Shown: positions 11,642 through 24,682 of the stretch, piece after piece
How the letters are laid out: every line of letters starts with the position of its first letter
Position numbering within the stretch: position 1 is the stretch's first letter
DNA from: Thermoanaerobaculia bacterium
Lineage (GTDB): Bacteria > Acidobacteriota > Thermoanaerobaculia > Gp7-AA8
DNA length: 57,668 nucleotides
Direction of reading: 5' to 3'
Assembly: GCA_017883235.1 (NCBI GenBank)
Contig: JADGNY010000025.1
Coordinates: 1 to 57,668 of the forward strand
Notes under the pieces: generated by a model
Database searches by the model: none
What the model was told of the DNA's origin: nothing
What the model saw: the letters and a program-made list of their open reading frames with translations, nothing else
Made by a program: the position numbers and the translations under genes

Positions 11642-13300
11642 CTACATCTGCCTCAGCTTCAGCGCCAGCGCCACCAATGCGGCCAGGATCACTCCCAGGG
11701 CGATGAAGAGTCCGCGGCGGCGGTAGGCCAGCTCGTCCAGTGAATGCTGGCCGGCAGTGAGGGCGGCCTGGGCGTGCTGGAGCGCTTCCTTACGCTTCTC
11801 AGCGAAGGCGCCGGCATTGGAGAAGGTGTGGACCAGCGTCTCGAGCTCGATCTGGTTATCGATGGCACTATCGAGCTCCGACCGGGCGGCGCGGACTTCG
11901 ACGCCGCCGCGCTGCGCGGTGAGGAGGATGCGCTCGGAGCGCGCGATCATGCTGGTCACTTCGCGCGTACCGGAGAGCAGCGCCTTCGACGTATCGTGGC
12001 CGGCAAAACCTGAGACCACGTGACAATTGCTGCATTGCCGCACGGCCTTGCTGACATCGTGGCCCGTCGCCGGATCCCGATACAGATAATGGGTCTTGCC
12101 GATGCGGAACTTATCGAACAGACGGGCGAACTCCGGCCGCAGATGCGGCTTGCCATCGTCCGCGGACATGATCCGGTGCGTGGGTAACTGCTGGGCCTGA
12201 TCGACCAGCCAGTCGAACCGCTGGTCGCCCTGAAGGTGCATCTTGGCGGCAGTCGCAAGTAAACCGTCGCGCGTCTGCACAAAATGCTCCGCTTTGTCCT
12301 TCGGCTCGGGAACGGCGGCGGCGAGCTTTCCGATCCCTTCATGGCAGAAGGCGCACGGCGTATCGGGCAGATTGCCGAGCATGGCCACAGTGGGGCGGTT
12401 GATGCCGTGGTTGCTATGGCAGACCACACAGCCGTTGAACTGCGTCAACTGTAGTGCGGCGCGCGCGTCGTCGTGACAGGCATTGCACTTCCCGTCGGGC
12501 GCGGCGGCGAGAAACTCATTGTGGTGTTCCCAGCCGGCGGCCTTGGGGCTGGCCCGGAACAACTCCATCTCCCGCACGTGGCATTGGCCGCAAACAAAGG
12601 CGATGCTGGCTACACCGGGAGGGGTGGCGCCATGATTTCCGTGGCAGTCGTTGCACGTCGGCGCGGTCAGATCGCCCTTCTGCAGCAAGGCCTTGGCGTG
12701 AACGCTCGTGCTCCAGTTCGCGTACTGGTCGATCGGCAGGGCGCGCCCATTCGCGTGCATCCTCTTCGCATCGGAATGGCAGCGGCTGCACGTTTCGGCG
12801 ACATGCGTCGGATAAACCGGCGACTCCGGATTGTTTTTTCTGCGAATGTCATGGACGGAATGACAATCGATGCAGGTAGCCACGTCCTCCACGCCCTTCT
12901 TCAGTTGCTGGCCGTGGCGGCTCGTCCAATACTCGCTGACCTCGTCGACGCGCACCGCGGGGTTGAAACGGTTCATATACGCCGCCGACGAATGGCAGCG
13001 GCCGCAGAAGTCGGGGATCGCCGTCCGCTTCGGAGCGCCGATATAGGGATTGGGCTTGAATTTGGGATCCATGGCCCCGGCGATGTCATCGCCGAGCTTT
13101 GGATCGGGATTGCCGCCGTGACAATCGTGACAGGAGAGGCCGACCTGCGAATGGACGTCGACGTTGAAATGCTTCACCTTGGCTTTGGCGGCGTCATCGA
13201 ACAGCTCACCGCCGTGGCAGTGGATGCACGACGTCTGGGCGAAGGCCACGCCCGTTGCGCAGAGGATCACGACAACAACAGCGAGCAGACGCGCTCTCAT
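11642..13300 (-). CDS. Undecaheme membrane-anchored cytochrome c of a bc-type complex
   Basis: This 552-residue protein has a Sec signal and eleven CXXCH motifs: CIHCH, CHDCH, CGRCH, CIDCH, CSRCH, CNDCH, CGQCH, CNACH, CVVCH, CAFCH and CSNCH. A helical stretch follows, and a single C-terminal membrane helix (about residues 528-547) ends in K-L-R-Q-M. The start ATG (13298-13300) overlaps the cytochrome b stop codon, so it is the third gene of a Rieske-cytb-multiheme operon. It takes the place of cytochrome c1 and would carry electrons from the b/Rieske core into the periplasm. The frame stays open further upstream, but that part lies inside cytochrome b and is spurious. Confidence 0.85.
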   Translation of the reverse strand: MRARLLAVVVVILCATGVAFAQTSCIHCHGGELFDDAAKAKVKHFNVDVHSQVGLSCHDCHGGNPDPKLGDDIAGAMDPKFKPNPYIGAPKRTAIPDFCGRCHSSAAYMNRFNPAVRVDEVSEYWTSRHGQQLKKGVEDVATCIDCHSVHDIRRKNNPESPVYPTHVAETCSRCHSDAKRMHANGRALPIDQYANWSTSVHAKALLQKGDLTAPTCNDCHGNHGATPPGVASIAFVCGQCHVREMELFRASPKAAGWEHHNEFLAAAPDGKCNACHDDARAALQLTQFNGCVVCHSNHGINRPTVAMLGNLPDTPCAFCHEGIGKLAAAVPEPKDKAEHFVQTRDGLLATAAKMHLQGDQRFDWLVDQAQQLPTHRIMSADDGKPHLRPEFARLFDKFRIGKTHYLYRDPATGHDVSKAVRQCSNCHVVSGFAGHDTSKALLSGTREVTSMIARSERILLTAQRGGVEVRAARSELDSAIDNQIELETLVHTFSNAGAFAEKRKEALQHAQAALTAGQHSLDELAYRRRGLFIALGVILAALVALALKLRQM

Positions 13301-14451
13301 CAATTCTCCGATCTCCGCCCGCCGCGCGTAATGAAGGCGAGGAGCAATAGCAGGATCCCGCTGAGAATCACCACATACAGCGGGAGCAGTGACATGTAGC
13401 CCCAGCACGTCATCCCGATGACGAACAGGAGGGCTACGGCGCCGACGATCGACCAGACTTTCCCCTTGCCCGGGGCGCTCCGATCGAGGAACGGCACCAG
13501 CATCAGCAGCAGACCGAGGGCCCCGAAGAGAAGGATGGGAATGGCCTCGTATTCGAGTCCGAAAATCTCGCCGCCGGGAACGAGCTTCAATGTCTGGAAC
13601 ATGAAGACGAAGTACCACTCCGGGCGGATGTTCTCGTAGGCAGGAGCGAAAAGGTCCGCCTTCTCGCCGAGCTCCCAGGGAAAGAGCGCCGCCAGTGCAG
13701 CGAGACAGCCGAGAGCGAAGAGCCAGCCGGAGAGATCGCGCAGTGCGAACTGCGGGAAGAACTTCATGGGCTGACGCTTGCCCGCCTCTTCTTTACAGGA
13801 CGGCGGAACGCTCATGCCCTTCAATTGCACAAGGGCGAGATGGGCGCCCAGGAACACGCAGGTAATCGCCGGCAGCACCGCCACGTGCCATCCATAGAAA
13901 CGCGAGAGCGTTCCGCCGGACACGCGGTCACCGCCGCGAAGGAAGCGAACCATCCAGTGGCCGATGAACGGCACGGCGCCGGCGATATCGGTTCCGACCT
14001 TCGTGGCGAAGAACGCCAGTTGATTCCAGGGAAGGAGATAACCGGAGAATCCGAACCCCAGGATGAGGAACAGGACGAAAACGCCGCTGACCCAGGTCAG
14101 CTCGCGCGGCGGCCGGTACGCTTTCAGGAAATAGACGCTGGCCAGATGCAGCATGGCGAAGAAGACCATGAGATTCGCCGACCACGAATGAATGGAGCGG
14201 ATCAGCCAGCCGAACGGCACGACGGTCATAATGAATTCGACCGATTCGAATGCCTCGTTCGCCGACGGCCTGTAATAGAGCATCAGCAGAACGCCGGTAC
14301 AGACCTGGACGAGGAAGAAGAAGAGCGTCATCCCCCCCAGGTAATAGAAGACGGTGTAACGATGCACGGGGACGGTCTTGTGGGAGCCGAGCTCGACGAT
14401 CGTCGAAAGACCGAGGCGGTCGTCAAGCCATTTTCCTACGCGGGCGATCAT
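13300..14451 (-). CDS. Fused cytochrome b of a bc-type quinol oxidoreductase
   Basis: This 383-residue protein has about eight to ten membrane helices. Helices B and D carry the heme b His pairs (H-S-W-S-A-N-L with M-L-H-L-A-S; G-W-H-V-A-V with G-A-H-L-A). The quinol-site motif P-E-W-Y is at about residue 275. Cytochrome b6-like and subunit IV-like parts are joined in one chain. It lies between the Rieske gene and the undecaheme cytochrome. Quinol oxidation at the P-E-W-Y site would send one electron to the Rieske protein and the multiheme subunit. The fold is certain; the electron acceptor is inferred. Confidence 0.93.
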
Positions 14452-17234: not shown

Positions 17235-17537
17235 TTACTTCTTCAGACTCCGCACATAGCCGATAACGGCTTTGATGTCGTCCGCGGAGAGTTTGCTGGC
17301 CGGCATTTTTCCCTTGCCGTCGGTGAGCGCTTTGGTGATCTCCGCGTCGGAGAGATTCTGGATCTCGGGGGAACGGAGATCCTTCAGCTTGAGGCTCTTG
17401 CCGACCGCGGTCTGTCCGCTTCCATCGGGGCCGTGGCAGGCCGTGCATTTCGTTTTGTAGGTGGCCGCGCCATCGGCGAATACGGCTACCGGGAGAGCAA
17501 TCACCAGGACCAGTATCAACAACAGTGTCTTCTTCAT
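17235..17537 (-). CDS. Small soluble cytochrome c (class I, one heme)
   Basis: This 100-residue protein has a signal peptide (to about residue 21, V-F-A) and one heme site C-T-A-C-H-G-P-D-G near residue 31. A distal Met ligand is likely in G-K-G-K-M-P-A-S, and the protein ends with the helix V-I-G-Y-V-R-S-L. This is the size of a periplasmic electron carrier. It lies 33 bp after the rhodanese-like gene in a BON-rhodanese-cytochrome cluster on the minus strand. Its partner could be the neighbouring bc-type complex, but that is inference. Confidence 0.9.
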   Translation of the reverse strand: MKKTLLLILVLVIALPVAVFADGAATYKTKCTACHGPDGSGQTAVGKSLKLKDLRSPEIQNLSDAEITKALTDGKGKMPASKLSADDIKAVIGYVRSLKK

Positions 17538-17570: not shown

Positions 17571-18065
17571 TTACCGTTCGCGGCCTTCGTGGACAGGGAG
17601 ACCGGCACCTTGCCAGGAAGAGAAACCGCCGAGGAGGGCGGAGGCTTCCAGTCCGGCGCTTCGGATGATGAGCGCCGCACGGGCGCTCGACTCTTCGGCC
17701 GGTCACGTGCAGTACGTGACGATCGGCTTGCCGCGCGGAAGGTACGGGAGCTCGCCCTGAATGAAGGAGAGCGGAATGTGCATGGCGCCGGGGATATGCG
17801 CGGCGGTGTAGTCGGCGGCATCCCGCACGTCGATCACCACGATTTCGCCGCGCTCCATCCGCTTGCTGAAGTCAGCCTGCGAAATCCGCGGGACGGATTC
17901 CAGCGACTCCGCCGACGGTGCGGCCGGTGCGTTCGTGGCCGTTGTTTCGACCGGCACCGCGGCAGGCGGTGTGGCCGTCTTCGCTACGCGCGTCGCGCTC
18001 CATGCGACGACTGCTCCGGCCAGCAGGCCGGCGGCGACGTAGACGCCGAGATCGCGCGATTTCAT
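17571..18065 (-). CDS. Membrane-anchored rhodanese-like protein with in-frame UGA (candidate selenoprotein)
   Basis: ATG at 18065 overlaps the BON gene stop (ATGA). The N-terminus has one membrane helix (about residues 8-25) and an Ala/Pro/Thr linker. A rhodanese domain then begins at about residue 60, with V-V-I-D-V-R-D-A-A-D-Y and H-I-P-G-A-M-H-I-P. At the active-site loop the frame reads V-T-Y-C-T, then TGA (17703-17705), then P-A-E-E-S-S-A-R-A-A and a normal rhodanese ending L-L-G-G-F-S-S-W-Q-G-A-G-L-P-V to TAA at 17571. Relatives often have Cys at that position (Y-C-x-C-P). Perfect conservation after the TGA and a hairpin that fits bacterial SECIS rules suggest selenocysteine. A simple nonsense mutation is the alternative. 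No selA, selB or tRNA-Sec gene is seen in this window. Confidence 0.7.
17670..17688 (-). promoter_or_regulatory. SECIS-like hairpin downstream of the in-frame UGA
   Basis: On the minus strand GAGCGCC, loop CGTGC, GGCGCTC form a perfect 7-bp stem. The loop begins 21 bases after the UGA and has G as its second base. Published bacterial SECIS rules, as I remember them, ask for a loop 16-37 bases from UGA with a G among its first two bases; this hairpin meets both. Confidence 0.55.
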
Positions 18066-18748
18066 TTCACGTCTCCTGGCTTGTCCGTTCGAAGACGGAC
18101 GACGATGTGGTCTTCGACACTCGTGATTCCGGGCGCGCAGGACGCGATCTCGAGCAGTACGTCGTGCTCGACGCACGAACCGACCGTGCCGCGAACGACG
18201 ATTGTCCGGCCCGAGATCTCCGCGCAAAGGTCTGCGACCGTGAGCGCTGCGCTGCGCCGGACCGCCTCCTCGAACGCGCGCTTCGCTTCCGCATTCTTCG
18301 ACCGCGGGACGATGCGGATTCGATTGCTGACGCCGCGAATGCCGGCGATGTGGAGGAAGGCGTCTTCGACGTTCTGCTTCTGCGCCGCCGACTCGACGAT
18401 GCCGTCGAGCGTGAGCCATCCCTCCCATACCGTGACATTGGGACGTTCCGGAAGCATGGCCGGCAACGACTCGAGGATGTCGGTGGCCAGGCGAAGCAGG
18501 GTGGAGTCGGTGCGATAGTTTCCGATCGTCAGCCGCACATCGAGTGCATTCTTCACCGCCACCACGCCGCGGACACGGCGTGCAAGAGCTTCCGCACAAC
18601 GCTTCTCGGAGTAGCTGGGTACGCTGCCCGAGAGCGTGACCTCCGCATCGTCCACCGAAACGGCGACCCTACTGGCATCGAGGCGCGGATCCCACCGAAG
18701 CTCGTCAGCCACGTTGCGTTGCAGCCCGGTTTCGATGTGTTGGTTCAT
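18062..18748 (-). CDS. Protein with three BON domains
   Basis: About 228 residues from ATG 18748; an in-frame ATG at 18796 would add 16 residues and neither start has a strong ribosome site. The first BON domain has V-A-D-E-L-R-W-D-P and L-S-G-S-V-P-S-Y-S-E-K-R. The second and third follow the same pattern (L-T-L-D-G-I-V-E-S; I-V-V-R-G-T-V-G-S) at roughly 75-residue spacing. BON domains bind membranes or hydrophobic ligands. No clear signal peptide is visible. It is the first gene of a cluster with the rhodanese-like gene (4-base overlap) and cytochrome c. An operator-like palindrome lies about 85 bp upstream. Confidence 0.8.
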   Translation of the reverse strand: MNQHIETGLQRNVADELRWDPRLDASRVAVSVDDAEVTLSGSVPSYSEKRCAEALARRVRGVVAVKNALDVRLTIGNYRTDSTLLRLATDILESLPAMLPERPNVTVWEGWLTLDGIVESAAQKQNVEDAFLHIAGIRGVSNRIRIVPRSKNAEAKRAFEEAVRRSAALTVADLCAEISGRTIVVRGTVGSCVEHDVLLEIASCAPGITSVEDHIVVRLRTDKPGDVK

Positions 18749-18832
18749 ACGCGCCGGAGTGGCAGCACAGGATGAGGCAGCCACAAAGATATCCATAGCG
18801 CCACTATCACAGCGCGGCGTGAGGATGGCCGG

Positions 18833-18954: not shown

Positions 18955-20028
18955 ATGACCTTCGGACGCGTCGGCGAAGAGCGGATTGTGGCGCTGTTGT
19001 GGGGCGTGCTGTTCACGGCGATCCTGGGGGGCCTCATCGTCTTCGGATCGAGGACTCTGGCCCACTTCGATGCGGCGCTGGTCGGCTACACCTTCGCCAC
19101 GCTCTTCGCCACGTTCGCCATCACCTATCGCTACTCGATGTGGCTGCAGCGCCCGCCGACGCGCACGTACTGGGTCCGCGGCTGGCAGCTCTTCTTCAGC
19201 CGGAAGTACCTGGCCCGCAACATCCGCAACTGGTTCGCCTGGGTGATCAGCGACTTCGCCATGAACCGCTTCATCTTCCGGCGCGACCGCAAGCGCGGCC
19301 TCGCCCACGCCCTCATCATGTGGGGCTGCATCCTCGCCTTCGCCATCACCTTCCCGCTCGTCTTCGGCTGGATCCACTTCGAGACCGTCCCCGGCGACCT
19401 CACCACGTATCGCACGTACGTCTTCGGCTTCGGCACGAGCTCGTTCCCGATCCATTCGATGGCCGCGTTCCTGATCTTTCACGGCCTGGTCTGGTCGGCC
19501 TTCCTGGTCATTGGCGGGGTGATGCTGGCCATGCGCCGGCGCATGCGCGATCACGGGGCGGCGGCGGTGCAGCGCTTCGGCGAAGACATCCTGCCGCTGG
19601 TCCTCCTCTTCGCCATCAGCGTGACCGGTCTGCTGCTCACCGCCAGCAACACCTGGATGAAAGGATACGGATACGATTTCCTGGCTCTTCTCCACGCGGT
19701 CACCGTGATCTTTACGCTGCTCTGGCTCCCGTTCGGGAAGTTCTTCCACATCTTCCAGCGGCCGGCGCAGCTCGGCGTCAGCTTCTACAAAGACGTCGGT
19801 GCACTGGAAGGGATGGCCCGATGCCGCCGATGCGACACCGAGTATGCCCCGCTGATCCAGATCAATGACCTCATCGATGTGGAGCGAAAACTCGGATACC
19901 GCTACGAGACCGACGCCCCCGAAATCGAGCACTACCAGCGCATCTGCCCTGCCTGCCGGCGGTCGATGCTCGCACTCGCACAAGGCGATCTCTGGCAGGC
20001 AACGACGCAGACCACGGCAAGGACTTAG
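18955..20028 (+). CDS. Membrane cytochrome b subunit with C-terminal zinc-ribbon-like tail
   Basis: This 357-residue protein has about six membrane helices with His residues suited to b-type heme (for example in [12 protein letters not shown] and L-L-H-A-V-T-V-I). A C-terminal soluble tail holds C-R-R-C near residue 287 and C-P-A-C near residue 335. The plan recalls the quinol-linked cytochrome b subunits NarI/DsrM/HdrE. It lies 5 bp before the molybdoenzyme gene and would connect that enzyme to the quinone pool. The CxxC pair could bind zinc or an iron-sulfur cluster. It is headed by a Crp/Fnr-type site. Exact family unknown. Confidence 0.7.
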
Positions 20029-20033
20029 ACCGA

Positions 20034-22234
20034 ATGGCCACACTCCCCAAGGAACAAGACGTCCTCATCGACGCATTCGGACCGCATCTCAACCGCATGG
20101 AGGGACGGCAGCTCGATACCGGCGTGCAACCGGATAAGGTCGTCAACACGCATTGCTGCTTCTGCGGACAACAGTGCGGCATCCAGCTCAAAGTCAAAGA
20201 CAACGCCGTCATCGGCTTCGAGCCGTGGTATGCCTTCCCGTTCAACAAGGGGATGCTCTGCCCGAAAGGAGTCAAGCGCTATCTCCAGGGAAGCCATCCC
20301 GACCGGCTGATCACGGCGCTGGAGCGCGATCCATCGTCGGACACAGGATTCCGGCCGATCGCCTACGACGAGGCCATCAGGAAAGTGGCCGCCGCGATCG
20401 ACCGCATTCAGACGGCCTATGGTCCGAATGCCTTCGGCGTTCTCTCCGGGGCCAGCCTGACCACGGAGAAGGCCTACCTGATGGGCAAGTTCGCCCGGGT
20501 CTGCCTGAAGACGAAGTTCATCGACTACAACGGCCGGCTCTGCATGGTCAGCGCCGGAGCGGCGAACAAGAAAGCGTTCGGCATCGACCGCGCCGCCAAC
20601 CCGTGGTCCGACATCCTGAACGCGGATGTGGTCGTCATCGCCGGCTCGAACACCGCCGAGTGCGCTCCGATCACGACCAACTACGTCTGGCAGGCGCGCG
20701 AGAACGGCGGGAGAGTCATCGTCATCGATCCGCGCATCACGCCGATTGCGCGGACGGCGGATGTCTTTCTGCCGGTCAAGCCGGGCCGCGACGTCGCGCT
20801 CTTCAACGGCATCCTGCAGCTGATGATCGAGAACGACTGGCTCGATCACGAGTTCATCGAGAACCACACCGTCGGTTTCGAGGCGGTCGCCGAGCACGTG
20901 AAGCAATGGACGCCGAAACGGACGGCCGAAGTGACCGGCGTGGCCGAGAAGTCGATCCGCCAGGCCGCGGAGCTGTGGGGGCAGGCCAAGACGAGCTTCC
21001 TGATGCACGCCCGCGGCATCGAGCACCACTCGCACGGCGTGGAGAACTGCCTCAGCACGATCAATATCGTGCTGGCCTCGGGACGTATCGGGCGCGAGTT
21101 CTGCGCCTATGGAACCGTCGTCGGTCAAGGCAACGGTCAGGGCGGCCGCGAGCACGGGCAGAAGTGCGATCAACTCCCCGGCTGGCGGGACATCAGCAAC
21201 CCGGCGCATCGCGAGTACATCGCCGGCGTCTGGGGCGTGAAGCCGGAAGAGATCCCGGAGGCGGGCGTCGACTGCTACGAGATGATGCGCAAGATCGACG
21301 CCGGCGAGATCAAGGGGCTTCTCAATATCTGCTTCAACCCCAAAGTTTCTCTGCCCGACAACGCCTTCGTCACGCGCGCGCTCGGCAAACTCGAGTTTTT
21401 CACCGTGATCGACTTCTTCCTCAGTGAGACCGCGCAGCACGCCGACATCGTCCTGCCCGGATCGCTTCATGAAGAAGATGAAGGGGTCGTCGCGCAGGTC
21501 GAAGGGCGCGTCATCAAGATCAACAAGGCCGTCGATCCGCCCGGCGATGCGAAGGAGGACTGGCGCGTGATCCAGGACATCGCGCAGGCCCTCGGGCGCA
21601 CGCACGGGATGACCTTCAACAGTCCGCGCGAGATCTTCGACGAGCTTCGCGTGGCCTCGAAGGGGGGCGTCGCGGACTACTTCGGCATCACCTACGAAAA
21701 GATCGAGGCGAACAACGGCATCTGCTGGCCATGCCCGTCCGAGGATCATCCCGGAACACCAAGGCTGTTCGAGCCGGATTCGTGGAACCCGATCGCGAAA
21801 GGCGCGGGACCATTTTACTTCCCCGACGGCAAGGCGCGTTTCAACGTCGCCGCGTACCGTCCGCCCGCCGAGGATGTCGATGAGGAGTATCCGGTCATCC
21901 TGACGACGGGGCGGGTGGTGAGCCAGTTCCTCTCCGGAACGCAGACGCGGCGCATCGGGCCGCTGGTCGATCAATATCCCGAGCCACGGATCGAGATCCA
22001 TCCGAAGCTGGCCGCGAAGTATGGGATCGCCGACGGCGACATGGTTACGGCGGAATCGCGTCGCGGCGATATCACGCTCAAGGCCCAGGTCGTGACGACG
22101 ATCCGTCCCGACACGATCTTTATCCCGTATCACTGGCCGGGCCGCAAGTCGGCGAATCAGCTAACGATCGCGGCACAGGATCCGGTATCCAAGATCCCCG
22201 AATACAAGGTTTGCGCGGTGAGGATCAGGAAGGC

Positions 22235-22238
<4 letters not shown>
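20034..22238 (+). CDS. NasA-like molybdopterin oxidoreductase (putative nitrate reductase)
   Basis: This 734-residue protein has an N-terminal [4Fe-4S] site C41-x2-C44-x3-C48-x27-C76. The likely Mo ligand is Cys170 in [10 protein letters not shown], close to the R-L-C-M-S-S-A of assimilatory nitrate reductases; NarG has Asp and formate dehydrogenases usually have U or C followed by H. Later motifs [10 protein letters not shown] and L-P-G-W-R-D also point to the NasA branch, and a molybdopterin dinucleotide domain fills the C-terminus. There is no Tat signal, so it acts in the cytoplasm. It lies in an operon with cytochrome b, ferredoxin and Rieske genes, which suggests a membrane-linked respiratory role rather than NADH- or ferredoxin-only assimilation. 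Substrate not proven; nitrate is the best guess. Confidence 0.8.
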
Positions 22239-22878
<640 letters not shown>

Positions 22879-22882
<4 letters not shown>

Positions 22883-23427
22883 TGACCCAAACGAATCCCG
22901 ATCAGCTCTCCGTTCCGCCGGATGGCAAGCCGTATCACGAGCAGCCGCAGTGGAGAAACGACTTCCCGATCGACTGGCCGCAGGACGAGCTGGTGGCGCG
23001 CCGCGACTTCACCAAGTTCCTGGTGCTGACCAGCTTCGCCTTCGCCTTCGGACAGGTCTGGATCGCCTTCGAGAACTTCGCGCGCAAGCGGCGCGGACGT
23101 CCGCCGATCCGGATGATCGCCAGGCTCGCCGCCGTTCCCGTCGGCAGCTCCGTCACCTTCGCCTATCCCGATGCCCACGATGACTGCGTACTGGTTCGTA
23201 CGGGCACCGCTCGTTTCGTCGCCTACAGCCAGAAGTGCACGCACCTGAGCTGCGCGGTGACGCCGCAGCTCGAGAAGAATTGTCTCTATTGTCCGTGCCA
23301 CCACGGATTCTTCGATCTTGCCACCGGCATACCGACCGCCGGCCCGCCGCGGCGCCCGCTGCCGCGTATCAGCCTGGAGATCCGCGACGGCGCCATCTAC
23401 GCCACCGGCGTCGAGGTGCGTGCATGA
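22879..23427 (+). CDS. Rieske [2Fe-2S] protein in the molybdoenzyme operon
   Basis: This 182-residue protein has R-R-D-F-T-K-F-L followed by a hydrophobic segment (about residues 37-60). The cluster motifs are C-T-H-L-S-C and C-P-C-H-H-G-F-F, and G-P-P-R-R-P-L-P follows as in bc-type Rieske proteins. The ATG at 22879 overlaps the ferredoxin stop. The Rieske domain would lie outside the membrane if the first helix is an N-in anchor or Tat signal, which puts it across the membrane from the Mo subunit. Such a Rieske protein is uncommon with a NasA-like enzyme. Confidence 0.88.
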
Positions 23428-23648
23428 GGCGCGCGTTCTCCCGCCAGCAGAAGATGACCATCGTCTTCGGCATCCTCTGCATCGTTCTCATCATCGTCGT
23501 GCTGCAGCTCTGGCTTCTCACCGCCACGATGAACGCCTTCCTCGGAGGAGAAGAGGCGGTGATCATTCCGGCCGCCGTCGCCAGCATGGCCTGCCTTCTC
23601 CTCAACGCCGGCCTGCTCTGGTACGTGTATCAGATGGAGCGCGCGTGA
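23424..23648 (+). CDS. Small two-helix membrane protein (DUF6755-like)
   Basis: This 74-residue protein has two membrane helices (about residues 11-34 and 46-68). The signature [12 protein letters not shown] links to a loop G-G-E-E and ends in V-Y-Q-M-E-R-A. It overlaps both neighbours by four bases. From memory it resembles the small proteins called DUF6755 that occur beside Rieske and molybdoenzyme genes; I cannot check this. It is probably an accessory subunit of the membrane complex. Confidence 0.7.
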
Positions 23649-24682
23649 ACGGCCCGCGGATGGAGGCCATCCGGACGCTTCATCCGGCGTACTTCGCTCT
23701 GGTCATGGCCACCGGCATCGTCTCCATCGCCGCGAAGCTGATGGAGATGAGCGTAATTGCGCAGGCACTGCTCATCATCAACGTCATCGCCTTCGTGTCG
23801 CTGGTGTTGCTGACGATCATCCGCATCGCGCGATTCCCCCGCGACGTGTTCGCCGACCTCATCGATCATCAGCGCGGCGTCGGTTTCTTTACGATGGTCG
23901 CGGCCACCAGCGTGCTCGGTTCACAGATCGTCATCCTCCTGCGGAACTATCGGATCGCGCTGGCGCTCTGGTTCGTCACCCTCGCGCTCTGGCTGTTCCT
24001 CATCTACGCCGTCTTCGCCGCATTCACCGTGAAAGAGATCAAGCCGCCGCTCGATCAGGGGATCAGCGGCGGCTGGCTGGTTGCCGTCGTGGCCACGGAG
24101 TCGGTGTCGACGCTGGCGTCGCTGATCGCGTCGGCATTTCCGGCACACGCGGAGGCGTTGCTCTTCATCAGCCTCTCGTTCTGGCTGTCGGGCGGCATGC
24201 TCTACATCTGGCTGATCTCGCTCATCTTCTACCGCTACACCTTTTTTCGATTCGCGCCGTCGGACCTGATGCCGCCGTACTGGATCAACATGGGGGCGAT
24301 GGCGATCTCCACGCTGGCCGGCACGCTGCTCATCGCCAATCAGGCCGGCTCGCCTCTGTTACAGAAACTCGGTGCGTTCCTCTTCGGCTTCACGCTGTTC
24401 TTCTGGTCGACGGCCACCTGGTGGATCCCGATGCTGCTGATCCTCGGGTTCTGGCGTCACGTCTACAAACGCTTCCCCCTCTCGTACAGCCCGCTCTACT
24501 GGGGCGCCGTCTTTCCGCTCGGCATGTACACGGTCTGCACGTACCGGCTGGCGAAGGTTGCCGGACTCGATTTTCTGCTGATGATTCCGAGAGTCTTTGT
24601 CTTCCTGGCGCTGGCGGCATGGGCGGTCACGGCAATCGGTCTCGGCCGGGAGCTGGGCAGAGACGTTCTCGTTCGGAAGTGA
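23645..24682 (+). CDS. TDT-family (TehA/SLAC1-like) anion channel
   Basis: This 345-residue protein has about ten membrane helices. It opens with the family start [16 protein letters not shown]. The family covers TehA, C4-dicarboxylate carriers and plant SLAC1, which conducts nitrate and chloride. GTG at 23645 overlaps the previous stop (GTGA). In this operon a role in moving nitrate or nitrite across the inner membrane is attractive, because the Mo subunit is cytoplasmic and no NarK gene is seen. Family certain, ion inferred. Confidence 0.82.

Follow-up and report, generated by a model that had tools for sequence, protein, structure and literature searches.

A predicted membrane-anchored rhodanese with a Cys-x-Sec motif in an acidobacterial genome

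The question raised by the locus described here is whether a UGA codon in the active-site loop of a rhodanese-like gene ends the protein or encodes selenocysteine (Sec). The gene lies on the minus strand at positions 17571..18065 of the window, by which we mean the whole analysed stretch of 57,668 nucleotides from a Thermoanaerobaculia bacterium. A first-pass annotation had proposed that the UGA at 17703..17705 (minus strand) is a Sec codon rather than a random stop, and the coordinates, reading frame and surrounding peptide were found exactly as it had described them. With the UGA translated as Sec, the product has 164 aa (starting with MKSRDLG, passing through YCTUPAEESSARAA and ending in GRER), and the only in-frame UGA is at residue 121, in the context KPIVTYCT-U-PAEESSARAAL. 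The complete rhodanese domain that had been claimed for the read-through product is present, since residues 63-153 match the Pfam family Rhodanese PF00581 (E 1.5e-16; 61.1 bits against a gathering score of 22.2), to which the protein belongs by profile as well as by fold.

A Sec insertion machinery is encoded in the genome to which the window belongs. Family searches detected selA (483 bits), selB (353 bits) and selD (366 bits), and a tRNA-Sec with anticodon UCA was recognised both by Rfam (68.5 bits) and by ARAGORN as a SeC call. The genome therefore holds SelA, SelB, SelD and tRNA-Sec together, which is the genomic criterion for bacterial selenoproteins and had been suggested as a check on the proposal. 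Its selD carries an in-frame TGA of its own (GGUACK), and a selB-family match above the cut-off occurs in 57 of 61 relatives. Within the window itself, an Rfam scan at gathering score gave no match and ARAGORN found no tRNA.

Relatives of the gene were sought by tblastn in the 61 related genomes and by scanning 396 genomes of the phylum with a profile, and many of those recovered carry exactly one TGA. Among the sequences fetched, the active-site column of the UGA holds TGA in 49 genes and Cys in 8, and neither TAA nor TAG was found there in the aligned set. The claim that the UGA falls where relatives have Cys thus stood insofar as Cys does occur at the same column, but Cys is the minority state and UGA is far commoner. 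At least five switches between Sec and Cys are needed on the whole tree, and both states are found in the clade of the window protein (13 sequences, support 99/97; ten TGA, three Cys). Identity to the window protein is 55-65% after the UGA, as compared to 43-67% before it; by this measure, the protein sequence is as well kept beyond the UGA as ahead of it. Alignment of the UGA with Cys in homologues and an intact frame beyond it, which serve as a criterion for selenoprotein genes, are both found here; an alignment of orthologues had been suggested as a check for the alternation. One rhodanese relative (G293:C20:119638-120051) has TGA, TAG and TAA inside the match and is apparently a decayed copy.

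The hairpin that had been noted downstream of the UGA also exists. It occupies 17670..17688 (minus strand) and consists of a 7-bp stem GAGCGCC/GGCGCTC (arms 17682-17688 and 17670-17676) and a 5-nt loop CGUGC (17677-17681) with G in second position; the UGA-to-loop spacing is 21 nt and the minimum free energy (MFE) is -13.9 kcal/mol. The bacterial SECIS model asks for a loop of 3-9 nt, a stem of 4-16 bp, a spacing of 16-37 nt, an MFE of at most -7.5 and a G as first or second loop base, in most cases with G or U next (PMC13188914). The window hairpin lies within all these limits (5 nt, 7 bp, 21 nt, -13.9 and CGU, respectively), so that the SECIS-compatible distance claimed earlier was confirmed along with the remaining features of the element.

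Comparison with relatives indicates that the UGA and its hairpin are not a coincidence. Genes with TGA have a hairpin stronger than that of synonymous-codon shuffles (mean z -1.95, n=26), and those with Cys do not (mean z -0.07, n=6), with the reservation that the sequences are related by descent and the z values overstate their independence. Among 48 distinct TGA sequences, the core GCC-NGU-NNG-G hardly varies, even at its silent third positions: C24 is found in 48 of 48 (16.4 expected), U27 in 45 of 48 (5.4 expected) and G30 in 48 of 48 (19.1 expected). The G-U of the loop is also read by SelB in the fdhF element of E. coli. In the Cys versions, either the hairpin or its loop U is gone, as illustrated by a Cys relative (L098) that retained the stem and in which the loop U is replaced by C. 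As a DNA motif, the core has exactly three matches in the 6.9-Mb genome, all at its TGA rhodaneses, while a reversed control motif has no match in the same genome; over the 61 genomes there are about 52 matches against 5 for the control, and about six of the former are not rhodanese-like by eye. Base-pair covariation was considered as the main argument for the SECIS element and was judged too weak for this, since the coding sequence restricts change; the conservation of synonymous sites took its place. There are 15 double-changed cells in the stem, and 83% of cells are paired, as compared to 30-51% when the partner is slid. Taken alone, this is modest support, since variation is absent from the inner pairs and the outer ones are loose.

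Other readings of the UGA can be judged against these observations. An ordinary stop would make the gene a pseudogene or leave a truncated protein of 120 residues, and the standard table 11 reading does end at 17703. Such a stop would leave the rhodanese fold without the part beyond strand beta4, and it would have to recur as the same stop codon in the same alignment position of 49 genes from many families, ahead of a downstream half that is conserved as protein and of invariant synonymous sites in the SECIS element, which makes this reading very improbable. Even less credence can be given to an assembly or sequencing error by which TGC or TGT became TGA. The assembly is a draft in 246 contigs, but two congeneric species and many other families have the same TGA, in every case accompanied by the SECIS core, and two more rhodanese genes of the same genome carry it. 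Thus, recurrence of TGA across related genes renders a random stop, a pseudogene and a sequencing error very unlikely, and its presence in independent genomes disposes of the error that had been named as a possible refutation. Nothing was found in favour of a UGA reassigned or suppressed to another residue such as Trp, without selenium, and this is hardly conceivable in view of the tRNA-Sec(UCA), SelA, SelB and SelD, the alternation with Cys and the SECIS element. The preference for Sec over a random stop, for which the machinery, the Cys/TGA alternation and the intact downstream half speak, was therefore well placed, and we consider it highly probable from the sequence evidence that this is a genuine selenoprotein gene in which the UGA encodes Sec121.

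In an AlphaFold2 model, the rhodanese domain has a pLDDT of about 97 (whole-chain mean 84), and the best solved match is 3tp9 (Z 18.6, rmsd 1.2 over 106 residues). Strand beta4 (115-118) ends at Tyr118 and is followed by Cys119 (17709..17711, minus strand), which is invariant in the family alignment and forms the C-x-U partner of Sec121. A MAFFT alignment with 11 rhodaneses and the strand end in the model place Cys119 at the canonical catalytic Cys, whereas pairwise BLASTP to GlpE pairs Sec121 with that residue. Cys119 likely occupies the canonical rhodanese active-site position, with Sec121 two residues further on, in an active-site loop that is two residues longer than in ordinary rhodaneses. 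GlpE, an ordinary single-domain rhodanese (1gmx, Z 15.9), shares the fold and, according to the alignment and the strand end, the position of the first active-site Cys; it has one catalytic Cys where the window protein has C-x-U in the longer loop.

The nearest curated family is NCBIfam NF041203 (rhodanese_LYCAU), described as 'rhodanese-like domain-containing protein form 3'; it has a CxU motif and is listed among the predicted selenoprotein families of bacteria (PMC13188914, PMC9312934). The window protein has both a rhodanese domain and the C-x-Sec motif after Tyr (YCTU) in common with this family. However, it scores 66.0 bits against a cut-off of 115, the three Sec-rhodaneses of the genome range from 59 to 80 bits, and the cut-off is passed in only one of 297 genomes of the phylum. 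It further differs from NF041203 in having an N-terminal anchor and a Pro/Ala-rich linker, in the BON and cytochrome c neighbours found in the genus, and in falling into its own well-supported clade among acidobacterial CxU rhodaneses. Because of the score, the protein is best classified by sequence as a membrane-anchored clade of its own within the known CxU selenorhodaneses rather than as a member of NF041203. TsoB, a rhodanese/DsbD fusion-like selenoprotein (NF045694), is likewise a membrane-linked rhodanese selenoprotein, but it has a UxxxxU double Sec and a DsbD-like fusion as compared to one UGA in 164 aa here, and the window protein, at 17.6 bits, falls far below the cut-off of 805. Rhodanese-like selenoproteins, likewise predicted, were reported from marine metagenomes under COG2897, COG0607 or cd01449 with no motif listed (PMC1088965, PMC2398784), and the first-pass annotation was right in mentioning such reports. 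In the literature searched, NF041203 was not named beyond a 2026 review and no Sec-rhodaneses in Acidobacteriota were found. What is new is a branch of a recognised kind of predicted selenoprotein, the CxU selenorhodaneses as such being known; recognition of the protein as a CxU form with a membrane anchor, encoded in an operon and accompanied by two Sec paralogues in the genome, goes beyond the first-pass annotation.

The hydrophobic N-terminal anchor spans residues 6-24 (17994..18050, minus strand; mean hydropathy 1.83 over 19 residues) and is followed by a Pro/Ala/Thr-rich linker up to about residue 55, a layout shared by the orthologues. An SD-like AGGAG lies a short way 5' of the ATG. Upstream, a BON-domain protein of 244 aa is encoded at 18062..18796 (minus strand), and translational coupling of the two genes is likely because its stop overlaps the rhodanese start (ATGA). 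A small c-type cytochrome of 100 aa (17235..17537, minus strand) begins 33 nt 3' of the rhodanese stop and is probably in the same operon. The order BON - rhodanese - cytochrome recurs in two further species of the genus; it was not seen at the other loci examined, and neighbours outside the genus are unrelated, so the operon is weak evidence of function and was given low weight. Two orthologues are flanked by a cysteine-desulfurase-like gene and archease-RtcB.

The two further TGA-containing CxU selenorhodaneses of the genome, which bring the number to three, differ in architecture. One is a secreted protein (G000:C6:17121-17573; ITYCAUQSEHTSARA). Its gene has SorA/SorB-like sulfite dehydrogenase genes as neighbours, and after it come tmk, a DNA polymerase III delta-prime-like gene and, three genes away, selB; the pairing with SorAB recurs in two more genomes (L076, L080). 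In the other (G000:C24:131541-133803), the TGA-containing selD directly adjoins a gene that joins a VTT/DedA-like membrane protein and a CxU rhodanese (LYCTUPNEASAARVA) in one fusion, where the VTT/DedA-like domain was named from sequence and not by profile search; this gene has TGA and the same SECIS core as the window gene. The SorAB and cysteine-desulfurase-like neighbours point loosely to sulfane-sulfur or sulfite (sulfur-oxyanion) metabolism. Elsewhere, the secreted rhodanese occurs as a tandem of one Sec and one Cys copy, about 100-150 bp apart (L077:5300-6232 on G012:C2 and L037:925-1932 on G006:C285), and these are possibly selenium-replete and selenium-poor isoforms.

Sequence analysis supports the Sec machinery, the conserved UGA column, the SECIS element, the rhodanese fold and the clade; the following mechanism can be envisaged on that basis. 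The hairpin after the UGA, with its N-G-U-N-N loop, most probably recruits SelB with Sec-tRNA(Sec), so that the UGA is read as Sec121. The anchor and flexible linker would tether the rhodanese domain to the membrane, most likely on the periplasmic side, although the charges around the anchor do not settle the side. In the active-site loop, a Cys119-Thr-Sec121 pair takes the place of the single Cys of ordinary rhodaneses; its selenolate may attack the sulfane sulfur of a persulfide, polysulfide or thiosulfate, or a disulfide, after which Cys119 may resolve the intermediate through a selenenyl-sulfide. In the genus, the adjacent c-type cytochrome may help to pass on electrons or sulfur. We infer the substrate, the redox cycle and the roles of the BON and cytochrome partners, and the proposed function is periplasmic persulfide or sulfane-sulfur transfer by the Cys-x-Sec pair, a mechanism in which we place about even confidence.

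A serious rival for the function, albeit not for the Sec identity, is that the selenoprotein is a redox enzyme, i.e. a thioredoxin-like disulfide or selenenylsulfide reductase or a peroxide-reducing enzyme on a rhodanese fold. The C-x-U/C-x-C pair in place of the usual C-x-x-G-x-R loop, the two additional loop residues and the cytochrome partner in the genus agree with such a role, whereas the SorAB-type sulfite dehydrogenase next to the paralogue and the cysteine-desulfurase-like gene next to two orthologues suggest sulfane-sulfur chemistry; we consider the redox role plausible, if somewhat less probable than sulfur transfer. A more far-reaching scheme, in which the parallel anchored, secreted and VTT/DedA-fused Sec-rhodaneses constitute, throughout the phylum, a selenium-dependent sulfane-sulfur relay across the acidobacterial envelope and the anchored form passes sulfur or electrons via Cys-x-Sec to a dedicated c-type cytochrome, is speculative and rather unlikely. 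We know of no characterised rhodanese that passes sulfur or electrons to a dedicated c-type cytochrome.

Since one genome has three Sec-rhodaneses and many more occur across the phylum, selenium may shape acidobacterial sulfur chemistry far beyond what annotations indicate, standard gene finding cutting such genes short at the UGA. The strict core GCC-NGU-NNG-G provides a specific DNA signature for finding Sec-rhodaneses, and the phylum-wide set with this tight signature is more useful than a single gene. The natural Sec and Cys versions, sometimes in tandem, offer a direct test of what selenium contributes to a rhodanese. A different arrangement, similar to the UxxS rhodanese form, was found in two Syntrophorhabdus MAGs (L013:3638-3961, L014:5001-5279), in which the in-frame TGA of the rhodanese is located elsewhere (YCRGYG-U-APS). 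In the window, a divergent cluster at 18955-24682 (plus strand) encodes a cytochrome-b-like membrane protein, a NasC/Fdh-like molybdopterin oxidoreductase, a ferredoxin subunit, a Rieske-like protein and a SLAC1/TehA channel, and at 11642-14451 (minus strand) there is a multihaem c-type cytochrome (DmsE/decahaem-like) together with a cytochrome b6-like gene, the closest named matches of which are cytochrome b6 and ExtP.
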